Shown piece after piece: positions 6,945-29,706 of a stretch of DNA of 39,033 nucleotides. Position 1 is the stretch's first letter, and the number at the start of each line of letters is the position of its first letter. Both the position numbers and the translations under genes were made by a program. The notes under the pieces are model-generated. The model did not search any database. It was not told the origin of the DNA and was given only the letters and a program-made list of their open reading frames with translations. The DNA comes from Methylococcaceae bacterium. GTDB lineage: Bacteria > Pseudomonadota > Gammaproteobacteria > Methylococcales > Methylomonadaceae. The DNA lies in contig DAOUSK010000010.1 in assembly GCA_030627265.1 (NCBI GenBank), forward strand, positions 1-39,033, in the 5' to 3' direction.

Positions 6945-7958
6945 ATGTGGTTAAAAGCAGAACAATTAGCCAGCGCACTTAACAAACAACTGGCTCCCGT
7001 TTATTTTTTAAGTGGTGACGAGCCGTTACAACTGGGTGAAGCAGCCGATGCAATTAGGTTGGCTGCCAAACAAGCAGGCTATGAAAACCGAGAAGTGCTC
7101 ACTGTTGATAAGTCTTTTAAATGGGCTGAACTTTTACAATCTGCTGATTCATTTTCAATTTTTTCCGATAAAAAAATCATTGATTTGCGTATTCCATCAG
7201 GCAAGCCTGGTATGGAAGGCAGTAAGGCGCTAACCGCTTACTGCCAACGCTTACCCGAAGATACGCTATTGCTAATCAGTTCTGGTAAGTTAGATAAATC
7301 TGCTAAAAACTCTAAGTGGGCAACAACGCTAGAAAAATCAGGTGTTGCCATGCAAATCTGGCCCTTAGCGGGCAATGATTTAATTCAATGGCTACAGCAG
7401 CGTTTACAAAGTAAAGGGCTTACCGCGGATAGAACTGACATACAGCTAATTGCATCTCGGGTAGAAGGCAATTTATTGGCTGCGGCTCAAGAGGTCGAAA
7501 AACTCTTTGTCTTATATGGTGCTTGCCAACTAAGCAGTGCGCAAATTGAAAATGCCGTTGCCGATTCATCTCGCTACGATGTTTTCAACTTAGTTGATGC
7601 CGCCTTATCTGGCAAGCTAGATCGCGCAGAAAAAATATTGACCGCCTTAAAGCATGAAGCGATTGCAGCCCCAGTCGTACTCTGGGCTTTAACAAGAGAA
7701 ACACGAAATTTAATCCATATTCAACAACAACTCGCAGACGGACAAGCAAAAAACAGTGTCTTTATGCGCTATCAAGTTTGGGGTAACCGCCAAAAACTGA
7801 TTGACTTTGCACTTGGCAAATTAAAACGCGACAATTTAATGCAAGCACTCTTACTTGCCGCTAAAACAGATAGACAAATTAAAGGCGAAGAACTCGGTAA
7901 TAGCTGGGATAGCCTTTTGCAAATTGTTTGTATTCTTGCAGGTAAAGCAGTTAGTTAA
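6945..7958 (+). CDS. holA: DNA polymerase III delta subunit
   Basis: A 337-residue clamp-loader subunit that opens the beta clamp. The N-terminus LAPVYFLSGDEPLQLGEAADAIR matches the family opening, in which the P-loop-like site is degenerate because delta does not bind ATP. Later landmarks are LLISSGKLDKSAKNSKW (about residue 108) and the central VEGNLLAAAQEVEKL helix. The C-terminal collar domain ends ELGNSWDSLLQIVCILAG. Length and position directly after lptE agree with HolA. In many gammaproteobacteria nadD follows; here the cluster stops and palindromic repeats begin. Confidence 0.94.
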   Translation: MWLKAEQLASALNKQLAPVYFLSGDEPLQLGEAADAIRLAAKQAGYENREVLTVDKSFKWAELLQSADSFSIFSDKKIIDLRIPSGKPGMEGSKALTAYCQRLPEDTLLLISSGKLDKSAKNSKWATTLEKSGVAMQIWPLAGNDLIQWLQQRLQSKGLTADRTDIQLIASRVEGNLLAAAQEVEKLFVLYGACQLSSAQIENAVADSSRYDVFNLVDAALSGKLDRAEKILTALKHEAIAAPVVLWALTRETRNLIHIQQQLADGQAKNSVFMRYQVWGNRQKLIDFALGKLKRDNLMQALLLAAKTDRQIKGEELGNSWDSLLQIVCILAGKAVS

Positions 7959-7967
7959 GCTCTTAGC

Positions 7968-8187
7968 TTTTGGTACGCTGACTTTAGAGACTGTGAAAGT
8001 ATTATGCGTAGGTTGGGCTGAAGCATGAAGCCCAACAACTGACGCTAGATAAGCCATTGATTGTTGTGGCTTCGCAAGCTCAGCCACAACCTACGAAACC
8101 TGTTTTTTAAGGTTATTATTGAATACTTTCACAGACTCTTTGCCTGCTTTTTTAGATAGAAAGCAGGCTAAAGCCAGCGTACCAAAA
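7968..8187. repeat. Nested (three-layer) palindromic element
   Basis: Three concentric inverted repeats are visible. The outer arms are TTTTGGTACGCTGACTTT (7968-7985) and its complement at 8170-8187, matching 17 of 18. The middle arms are AGAGACTGTGAAAGTATT (7986-8003) and 8122-8139, again 17 of 18. The inner arms are GTAGGTTGGGCTGAAGC... (8008-8038) and ...AGCCACAACCTAC (8061-8094), an imperfect pair in which each arm also folds into its own 8-bp hairpin. A further hairpin, GCCTGCTTT/AAAGCAGGC, lies at 8142-8168. There is no coding potential. This looks like one MITE/REP-like sequence inserted within another downstream of holA. Confidence 0.8.
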
Positions 8188-8190
8188 TAC

Positions 8191-8250
8191 GGGTAAAGTA
8201 TGATGCATTGCAACCCTTATCATCCGAAAGGCACGCAATGCGTACCCTAC
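8191..8250. repeat. Imperfect palindrome ending in CCCTAC
   Basis: GGGTA plus GCATTGC (8191-8195, 8205-8211) faces GCAATGC plus TACCC (8235-8241, 8243-8247), with an unpaired bulge on the left arm. It abuts the nested element and resembles the same class of dispersed repeat bounded by GTAGG/CCTAC-type ends. No second copy was found in the window. Confidence 0.4.
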
Positions 8251-8386: not shown

Positions 8387-10315
8387 ATGACTGTAGAAGC
8401 AAAAAAAGAAACCTTAGGCTTTCAAACGGAAGTTAAACATTTATTACATTTAATGATTCATTCTTTATATAGTAATAAAGAAATTTTCTTACGTGAATTA
8501 ATTTCTAACGCATCTGATGCATCTGATAAATTACGTTTTGAAGCTTTATCGAATGACGGCCTTTATGAGGGTAATAGTGATTTAAGTATTCGCATTGCTT
8601 TTGATAAAGACGCTAAAACTATTACTATTAGCGATAATGGTATTGGTATGACTCGTGATGAAGTTCAAGAGCATATTGGAACGATTGCTAAATCAGGCAC
8701 TAAACAGTTTTTTGAAAAACTAACCGGTGATGAAGCAAAAGATAGCGAGCTAATCGGTCAATTTGGTGTGGGTTTTTACGCAAGTTTTATTGTTGCTGAT
8801 AAAGTAACGCTTGTTACTCGCAAAGCAGGTAGCGAAGAAGCGGTTATGTGGGAGTCAGCGGGCGAAGGCGACTACACATTAGAAACTGTTGAGAAAGTTG
8901 GTCGCGGAACCGATGTTATCTTGCACCTAAAAGACGCTGAAACTGAATTCTTAGATGATTTCCGTCTACGTTCAATTGTTAAAAAATTCTCAGACCATAT
9001 TTCTTTACCTATTGTTATGGATAAAGAAGTGCCTGCTGAAAAAGATGAAGAAGGCAATGAAACAGCGCCTGCTAAAATCGAAGATGAAACAGTTAACAGT
9101 GCTTCTGCTTTATGGACTAAATCTAAAGAAGGTTTATCTGATGAAGACTACAGCGAGTTCTACAAACATGTAGCACATGATTTCCAAGATCCATTAACAC
9201 ATATTCATAGCAAAGTAGAAGGCACCAACGAATACACAATGTTATTGTATGTTCCTGCTCGTGCTCCTTTTGATATGTGGGATAAAGACGCAAAACACGG
9301 TATTAAATTATACGTGCGTAAAGTCTTTATTATGGATGATGCTGATGAATTAATGCCTCGCTACTTACGTTTTATCCGTGGTGTGATTGATACTGACTCG
9401 CTGCCTTTGAACGTATCACGTGAAATTTTGCAACAAAGCAAAAAAATTAACGTTATCAAAGCAGGCGCGGTTAAAAAAGTACTCGGCTTGCTAGAAAGCA
9501 TGGCTAAAAATGACAAAGAGAAATATGCTACATTCTGGAAAGAGTTTGGTAATGTCATCAAAGAAGGCCCGATTGAAGATACTAAAAACAAAGAGCGTAT
9601 TGCTAAATTAATGCGTTTTGCTTCAACAGAAGCAAATACAGATGCACAAGAAGTTTCTTTAGAAGATTACATTGGTCGCATGAAAGAAGACCAAGATAAA
9701 ATCTACTACGTGACTGCGGATAATTTTACTGCGGCTAAAAATAGCCCGCATTTAGAAATCTTCCGTAAAAAAGGCATTGAAGTTCTATTATTATCTGATC
9801 GTGTTGATGAGTGGTTAGTTTCACACCTAAATGATTTTGATGGCAAAGTTTTACAATCGGTTGCTAAAGGTCAATTAGATTTAGATAAATTTGATACTGA
9901 AGAAGATAAAAAAGAACAAGAAGAGACTTCTAAAGATTTCGAATCAGTATTAACTCAAGTGAAAGAAGTACTAGGCGACAAAGTTAGTGAGGTGCGTATT
10001 AGTCACCGTTTAACTGCCTCCCCTTCTTGTTTAGTGTCTGAGCAAGATGCGATGAGCTTAAACATGGAACGCATCATGAAAGAAGCGGGTCAAGATTTAA
10101 GCATGATGGGCATGGGCGGCAACAAGCCAGTGTTTGAAATAAACGCTGAGCACGCTTTAGTCGCTAAACTAAAAGACGAGCAAGATGATGATCGTTTTGC
10201 CGCTTTAACAGGTATTTTATTCGACCAAGCCATTTTAAGTGAAGGTGGGCAGTTAGATGACCCTGCTGATTTTGTACATAACTTAAATGACTTATTACAA
10301 GGTTTATTGAAATAA
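8387..10315 (+). CDS. htpG: Molecular chaperone HtpG (Hsp90)
   Basis: A 642-residue ATP-dependent chaperone dimer. The N-terminal GHKL ATPase domain shows [17 protein letters not shown] (about residues 34-50, catalytic Glu and Mg-binding Asn), then ISDNGIGMT and the lid/GFYASF block ([11 protein letters not shown]). The middle domain carries LPLNVSRE with the conserved Arg of the catalytic loop. The C-terminal dimerisation domain ends [17 protein letters not shown]. The length is normal for the family. The ATG has TAGGAA upstream. A sigma-32-like promoter precedes it and a strong terminator follows, so it is a single-gene transcription unit. Confidence 0.97.
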
Positions 10316-11960: not shown

Positions 11961-12020
11961 CTGGGGCGCAGGTCTTTAGCCTGCATTTATACAAGAGCAG
12001 GCTAAAGACCTGCGCCCCAG
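11961..12020. repeat. Perfect 24-bp inverted repeat
   Basis: The left arm (11961-11984) begins CTGGGGCGCAGGTCTTTAGC. The right arm (11997-12020) is its exact complement over all 24 bases, around a 12-base AT-rich loop. No T run follows, so it is not a classical terminator, though it lies between the convergent TRAP and RND genes. A smaller hairpin, GCATAAAA/TTTTATGC, is at 12076-12101. The remaining bases of this 307-bp gap (11836-12142) show no gene. Confidence 0.85.
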
Positions 12021-17193: not shown

Positions 17194-17302
17194 CCGTAGG
17201 ATGGGTAGAACGTAGCGCCTGTCTTTTTAGGTGCGCAGTGAAACCCATCAACTCTACGTAAAACGATGGGTTTCGCAAAAAGACGCTCTACCCATCCTAC
17301 GG
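17194..17302. repeat. Dispersed palindromic repeat, family B, copy 1
   Basis: A 109-bp imperfect palindrome. The outer ends are CCGTAGGATGGGTAGAACG and CTCTACCCATCCTACGG. The inner arms are GTGAAACCCATCA and TGATGGGTTTC, and an asymmetric CTTTTTAGGTGCGCA insert lies on the left. Related copies are at 24926-25034 (same orientation) and 29602-29706 (inverted). It sits in the 335-bp gap before the AI-2E-family gene; I see no gene in that gap. Confidence 0.88.
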
Positions 17303-29520: not shown

Positions 29521-29601
29521 AGTTAAAGAGCAATAACTTCCTAGGTAGCCTGTCATTGCCATTAAGTTAAGGTTTTTTTAAATAGAATCAATAGGCTAAA
29601 C

Positions 29602-29706
29602 GTAGGATGGGTAGAACGTCTTTTTGTGAAACCCATCATTTTATGCAAGATTGATGGGTTTCACTACGCGCCTAAAAAGACTGGCGCGCCATTCTACCCA
29701 TCCTAC
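29602..29706. repeat. Dispersed palindromic repeat, family B, copy 3 (inverted)
   Basis: A 105-bp copy bounded by GTAGGATGGGTAGAACG and TTCTACCCATCCTAC. The asymmetric CGCGCCTAAAAAGAC block is on the right side here, so its reverse complement aligns with copies 1 and 2. It lies in the 371-bp zwf-glgP gap, which contains no gene, and the bases after it (TGTGTTTTTTTT) could let it terminate zwf transcription. Confidence 0.85.

Follow-up and report, generated by a model that had tools for sequence, protein, structure and literature searches.

A nest of inverted repeats at positions 7968-8187 of the window (the whole stretch of 39,033 nucleotides that was analyzed) very probably arose stepwise: a pair of REPs came first, a MITE, presumably mobilized by an IS1182-family transposase, then entered the loop of one REP, and that MITE already carried GTAG-tagged REPs of its own. 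Serial insertion is well supported. Many relatives of the MITE lie at hairpin tips with the letters of the tip copied, which suggests that folded DNA is what the enzyme aims at; that the transposase recognizes an extruded hairpin is likely but unproven.

The outer arms of the nest (7968-7987 and 8168-8187) match at 19/20 positions, the middle arms (7986-8003 and 8122-8139) at 17/18, and the innermost pair (8007-8015 and 8087-8095) at 9/9. Folded as DNA, positions 7960-8195 gave -66.3 kcal/mol, compared with -24.7 ± 3.3 kcal/mol for shuffled sequences (z = -12.6; 0/200 as good). The initial annotation had described three nested repeats with 17/18 arm matches, one common center, and two small hairpins inside the innermost layer. 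The nesting stood, with the z score of -12.6, as did the two hairpins (8012-8036 and 8063-8090), but the figure of 17/18 holds for the middle pair only, and the common center was refuted by the arm coordinates, which place the centers at 8077.5 (outer), 8062.5 (middle), and 8051 (innermost). A third small hairpin, with arms at 8139-8150 and 8160-8171, lies outside the innermost layer and within the outer one. When 18-nt arms with at most one mismatch were sought within 250 nt, the window gave 16 overlapping hits, equivalent to four repeats, two of them the nest's; 50 Markov sequences, each as long as the window, gave 6 hits altogether. An Rfam scan of the window returned no family at or above its cutoff.

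The nest opens with the left part of the first outer REP (7972-7986, plus strand), read from the sequence and from copies of the REP family as the arm GGTACGCTGAC followed by the loop TTTA (7983-7986), which is also the left target-site duplication. The 152-bp MITE occupies 7987-8138 (plus strand); its copies and an autonomous element define its ends, GAGACTGTGAAAGTATT and AATACTTTCACAGACTC, which closely resemble those of an IS1182-family element. Inside it are two inner hairpins tagged with GTAG. The first (8008-8036, plus strand) consists of GTAG and GTTGGGCT..AGCCCAAC and has copies free of MITE ends (L027, L028, and L043); the second (8063-8094, minus strand), recognized in the sequence, has the opposite orientation, and IS110-family insertion in the congener G009 falls close to its GTAG end. 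The right target-site duplication is TTT (8139-8141, plus strand), its A presumed lost; exact TTTA or TAAA stands on both sides at 34/77 insertion sites. Next come the right half of the first outer REP (GCCTGC), a spacer, and GCAGGC of the second outer REP (8142-8168, plus strand), which by themselves make a small hairpin. The second outer REP (8163-8183) is uninterrupted and inverted, its sequence on the minus strand being GGTACGCTGGC-TTTA-GCCTGC. The arrangement is thus GCTGAC-TTTA-[152 bp]-TTT-GCCTGC: the MITE parts the two arms of one REP, with a copy of the loop on either side, the right one without its A. Pattern copies include an uninterrupted outer-type REP pair at 11963-12018, a variant that has GGTC ahead of the TTTA loop, which serves as an unoccupied comparison within the window. 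Right after the outer REP pair, another GTAG-tagged palindrome is found at 8196-8250 (minus strand GTAGGGTACGCATTGCGT..); similar sequence is present in L014 and, behind a MITE-like left end, in L042.

Without the insert, the outer unit is 57 bp long (7972-7986 plus 8142-8183) and comprises a pair of hairpins in inverted orientation that follow the pattern GCTGGC-TTTA-GCCTGC. As in REP pairs, or BIMEs, the hairpins are short and imperfect; their core is found at 31 places, and both outer arms are kept in 18/21 pairs. An intergenic position is established for the window copy, between holA and htpG. RAYT genes usually have their own REPs on both sides. In L038, a 175-aa Y1_Tnp gene (1108-1635) is flanked on either side by pairs of the outer type with TTCA loops; it scored above the Pfam cutoff for Y1_Tnp and reached 66.5 bits, below the cutoff of 80, with the NCBIfam model for REP-associated transposases. 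Because such pairs flank this gene, the name RAYT-type REP pair is used here for the outer layer; the product of the L038 gene may have mobilized it. Outer REPs in the 21 pairs read start mostly with GGTAC or GGGGC, and the inner REPs start with GTAG. The loops in these sampled pairs were TTCA (23), TTTA (16), TCAA (2), and CTTA (1); two of the TTTA loops adjoin a MITE.

The initial annotation had offered either serial insertion of one palindromic element into the loop of another or one long cruciform-forming element, and had proposed a genome search with each layer separately. We searched the genome of origin (2.3 Mb in 182 contigs, 91.5% complete) and found separate copies of the outer, middle, and inner layers, as stepwise insertion predicts. 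Positions 7940-8210, used as the query, gave at least 60 matches (40/73 candidates scored). The borders of the layers divide these matches; one class covers query positions 47-200 (the middle arms and everything between), and another covers query positions 203-245, often matched on both strands at one place, as a palindrome should be. A pattern search of this genome placed the outer core AGCCTGC..GCAGGCT at 31 positions, compared with 0 for a control pattern. Twenty-one of these pairs were read with their flanks; 18 are free of an insert, including the one at 11963-12018, and three have a MITE in one loop. Middle and inner layers occur as one unit in eight copies with at least 140 aligned bases, the window's included, and in shorter ones; this combined unit is found at many places, so the MITE would have carried its GTAG-REPs beforehand. 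The middle element is also found without the inner REPs: L053 has a version of 83 bp, and L058 has one of 56 bp that likewise lies in an outer-type palindrome. Other interiors occur in L060 and in most copies read in the congener G006. The inner hairpin stands alone in L027, L028, and L043 and at a second place in L014, with no MITE end nearby in an end scan. Serial insertion was borne out by insert-free outer pairs (18/21), middle elements with other interiors, and inner hairpins alone, and insertion "into the loop of another" proved right for a single REP hairpin, the TTTA loop that holds the MITE belonging to one member of the REP pair. Beyond this genome, the nest query was matched in 20 of 41 genomes (own included), several of them through the inner REP only.

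The MITE of the middle layer, which has ends of about 17 bp (GAGRCTGTGAAAGTATT), is multicopy in its own genome and in congeners. With up to two mismatches allowed, the own genome contains 31 occurrences of its 17-bp end, compared with one for the reversed control; with up to one mismatch, the end is found in 13/18 genomes of the genus, own included. Elements of 1,698, 1,705, and 2,702 bp in G009 have a left end identical to that of the MITE and a right end with one mismatch; the 2,702-bp element is interrupted by another IS. A transposase fragment from this congener (P0001) scored 274.2 bits with the IS1182 model NF033551 (NCBIfam cutoff, 270), and the target duplications of its IS1182-type elements are TATT, TAAA, and TTTA. 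All of the G009 copies are broken, and a 523-aa open frame is found in G013, in a 1,696-bp element (L183) with similar ends. An IS1182 transposase was detected in 3/18 genomes of the genus but not in the own genome, which is 91.5% complete. The 152-bp MITE, having its ends in common with the autonomous IS1182 element, appears to belong to the IS1182 family; it is free of a transposase, multicopy, and flanked by an exact duplication of 3 or 4 bp at 51/77 sites, the window's being degraded. The IS256 family was considered as the source of the MITE ends and rejected, the autonomous copies being IS1182. In L121 (G006), consecutive MITEs are separated by a single TTTA, and the facing MITE ends form a hairpin with a TTTA loop.

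We collected 77 distinct sites with both element ends, 10 of them in the own genome. The longest exact duplication was 4 bp at 40 sites, 3 bp at 11, and 2 bp at 3; 23 sites had none, the window among them. The 4-bp duplications were TTTA (19), TAAA (15), TTAA (2), TATT (2), TGAA (1), and CTTT (1). Pairing was scored as the number of pairs among the first eight flanking positions, with shuffled flank partners as the control, and two L121 rows were dropped from the 4-bp set (40 to 38) because their flanks are MITE ends. The 38 sites gave 4.5/8 pairs versus 3.48 ± 0.23 for shuffled partners (0/5000), and the 11 3-bp sites gave 5.9/8 versus 4.96 ± 0.28 (5/5000); the best mean palindrome center coincided with the center of the duplication in both groups. 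At least five pairs were present at 18/38 4-bp sites and 9/11 3-bp sites (27/49 together, L121 dropped), and at most three at 11/38 and 2/11, respectively; ordinary TTTA or TAAA sites of the window (n = 880) had a mean of 2.05 pairs, with at least five pairs in 4.1%. When look-alike flanks were strictly removed, which reduced the 49 sites to 28, a weaker pairing excess remained: 23 deduplicated 4-bp sites gave 3.78 pairs versus 3.18 ± 0.24 for shuffled partners (91/10000), and five deduplicated 3-bp sites gave 4.4 versus 3.64 (150/10000). The 3-bp group consists mostly of one repeat type, CCCACGC-TCC-GCGTGGG and its relatives, and one of its members, L056, is probably a decayed 4-bp case.

Eight MITEs of the own genome were read as lying in the outer REP family, some with one readable side (the window, L009, L010, L011, L015, L016, and L019, from the 22 places shown, plus L058). 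All eight are at TTTA though TTCA loops are commoner, so the loop sequence matters too. Four sites (L105, L126, L152, and L167) have TTTA on one side and TAAA, an inverted copy of the loop, on the other, and their flanks still partly pair; loop inversion and recombination between copies are both possible origins of these mixed loops.

From 80 IS1182 loci in named genomes we obtained 31 distinct copies with both GAGRCTGTGAAAG-like ends; only such ends were counted, because the boundaries of distant copies are ambiguous from inverted repeats alone. A duplication of 3 to 5 bp was found in 18 copies and no exact duplication in 13. The 18 gave 4.44/8 pairs versus 2.86 ± 0.31 for shuffled partners (0/5000), with at least five pairs in 11 and at most three in 6; examples are L270, with 13/14 positions paired around TGGA, and L256, with the first nine paired around TCCT. 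L263 in this set is apparently the G013 element L183, which is among the 77 sites: the contigs are equal in length and the flanks identical. In four IS1182 copies without a duplication (L260, L261, L266, and L276), palindromic arms abut or nearly abut the element. The arms that abut it are long in L266 (14/14 positions shown) and L261 (the first seven, by eye); those of L260 and L222 are long once shifted by one or two bases (by eye). By analogy with IS1272, duplication-free copies with abutting arms may represent an outcome in which the stem-loop is lost.

A further reading, which we rate at a little under even odds, is that a widespread IS1182 branch picks its targets by the shape of the DNA, entering the loop of an extruded hairpin and duplicating exactly that loop, with REPs as landing pads. 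The length of the duplication (3, 4, or 5 nt) would then be set by the target loop and not by the enzyme. Acting on double-stranded DNA, DDE transposases normally produce duplications whose length is fixed. An alternative account, which strikes us as somewhat doubtful, is that the transposase reads a symmetric motif in duplex DNA (core GGC-TTTA-GCC) with a near-fixed stagger, and that REPs are hit for that core only. It would accommodate the C or G at position 1 outside the duplication in 20/23 deduplicated 4-bp sites and the G or C at positions 2 and 3 in 11/23 each, and it fits the 34/40 share of TTTA and TAAA among 4-bp duplications, the 20/38 4-bp sites with fewer than five of eight pairs, and the fact that no insertion was seen in a TTCA-looped REP among the sites examined; it is harder to reconcile with flank pairing above that of partner-shuffled flanks, with a palindrome centered on the duplication at both 3 and 4 bp, and with targets such as CCCACGC-TCC-GCGTGGG, GCAATAGC-TTTA-GCTATTGC, and CCCACGC-TGGA-GCGTGGG, which have only the palindrome in common. 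A pure shape rule, for its part, is opposed by the many copies without pairing or duplication, by the preference for TTTA, and by the mixed-loop sites.

Each layer has separate copies, the MITE ends are close to IS1182 ends, and the duplications of 3 to 5 bp are on average centered on a palindrome. For the nest as a whole, we propose the following course. A 57-bp RAYT-type REP pair, made of two inverted TTTA-loop hairpins, would have settled between holA and htpG. The 152-bp MITE, mobilized by an IS1182-family transposase, would then have entered the first REP at its apical TTTA loop, duplicating the loop, with the two inverted GTAG-REPs already aboard on arrival. The transposase would recognize the extruded hairpin, in the form of a cruciform or a single-stranded REP, and join both 3' ends to the loop on its 5' side; repair would then duplicate the loop alone, and the arms would end up flanking the element. 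If targets are chosen by shape, REP families spread by RAYTs would serve as landing pads, and nests could grow in rounds (REP, MITE, REP, and IS110). A fourth layer is present in G009, where three MITEs (L095, L096, and L097) sit in CAATAGC-TAAA-GCTATTG-like palindromes, each broken by an inserted stretch at about MITE position 107, not far from where the inner REP has its GTAG end. The splitting stretch has an IS110-family gene, and the one scored (333 aa) gave 191 bits with NF033542; L096 has a further DDE transposase gene.

Passages of PMC5678879 and PMC4923244, both citing Siguier and colleagues, mention IS1182 members that target palindromes; in the former, such targeting is said to lack detailed data, and duplication of the loop alone is drawn as a hypothetical route (pathway c), one of three possible outcomes. 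IS1272/TnSha1, of the same transposase family, is described in these passages as targeting inverted repeats with no common sequence, and according to PMC5678879 IS1272 removes all or part of the stem-loop and makes no duplication. Here, in contrast, duplications the size of the loop are common, with retention of the arms; the window keeps both REP arms and a degraded duplication. Insertion within REPs is described in part of PMC1525189 for IS1397, ISKpn1, IS621, ISPsy8, ISRm22, ISPpu9, and ISPpu10, and the nearest geometric precedent there is ISRm22, which enters at the axis of the palindrome (REP) with a 6-bp duplication. Those elements belong to the IS3, IS110, IS4, IS256, and IS5 families, IS1182 being absent from the text, whereas the inserted element here is a MITE and several palindrome families are used. 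QMITE2 of Coxiella burnetii, a MITE with a GTAG REP that is itself an IS1111 target (a passage of PMC10969869), parallels the IS110-family insertions of G009, although that passage does not place the MITE itself in a REP loop. The GTAG-tagged, RAYT-associated REPs treated in a section of PMC3733652 resemble ours in the tag, the short stems with loops, the dimers, and the association with a transposase gene; the outer family differs in having GGTAC or GGGGC, not GTAG, before the hairpin.

In the literature examined on IS1182 with hairpins, MITEs, and REPs we found no account of loop-only duplication in REPs by an IS1182 element, and an earlier one in the Siguier reviews is possible. The IS1182 family and its taste for palindromes are known, and a duplication of loop length in REPs by an IS1182-type MITE is apparently undescribed. 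For IS1272, the explanation given was that the stem-loop is lost; our set of natural insertions suggests a second outcome, in which only the loop is duplicated, and supplies ready REP targets along with an open IS1182 reading frame (G013). Palindromes of independent origin accumulate in this manner into long cruciform-forming repeats in bacterial spacers.

The nest is located between holA (6945-7958; TIGR01128, 258.5 bits) and htpG (8387-10315; NF003555, 832 bits). It is unlikely that it was kept there for a role in RNA, as a terminator or an mRNA stabilizer; its predicted RNA fold (-110.9 kcal/mol; z = -12.2) and intergenic placement would suit such a role, which could also be a side effect, but parts of the nest are copied at many other places and the congener G015 is without the nest at the same place. 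G015 (L207) is the only one of 15 congeners with an htpG match in which holA lies beside htpG, judged over about 1.5 kb on either side and limited by contig ends in some. Its HtpG fragment is 98% identical, and about 190 bp separate HolA residue 335 from the start of htpG. Relatives had been suggested as a source of empty sites, and none of the layers was found in this spacer; it is not a clean empty site, however, because HolA is only 83% identical. A single composite element, with outer, middle, and inner layers moving together, is highly improbable and was rejected as the origin, since each layer has independent copies: the outer and middle layers do occur together in the window, L009, L010, and L019, and the long cruciform-forming element of the initial annotation survives insofar as the whole can still fold as one structure, but the outer flanks differ in sequence among those four places, 18/21 outer pairs lack an insert, and the middle layer is found in other flanks (L012 and L053) and, in congeners, in other palindromes.

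The host probably belongs to the Methylococcales, a gammaproteobacterial order of methane oxidizers. A gene for pMMO/AMO subunit A was found in 8/12 congeners searched and in 6/8 other members of the order, but a search of the own genome (91.5% complete) revealed none. The window also holds a separate repeat, at 17195-17302 and 29601-29706, which is an inverted pair, GTAGGATGGG..CCCATCCTAC, with inner repeats. This repeat gave at least 40 matches in the own genome (40/130 candidates scored), including both window copies and one tiny match.
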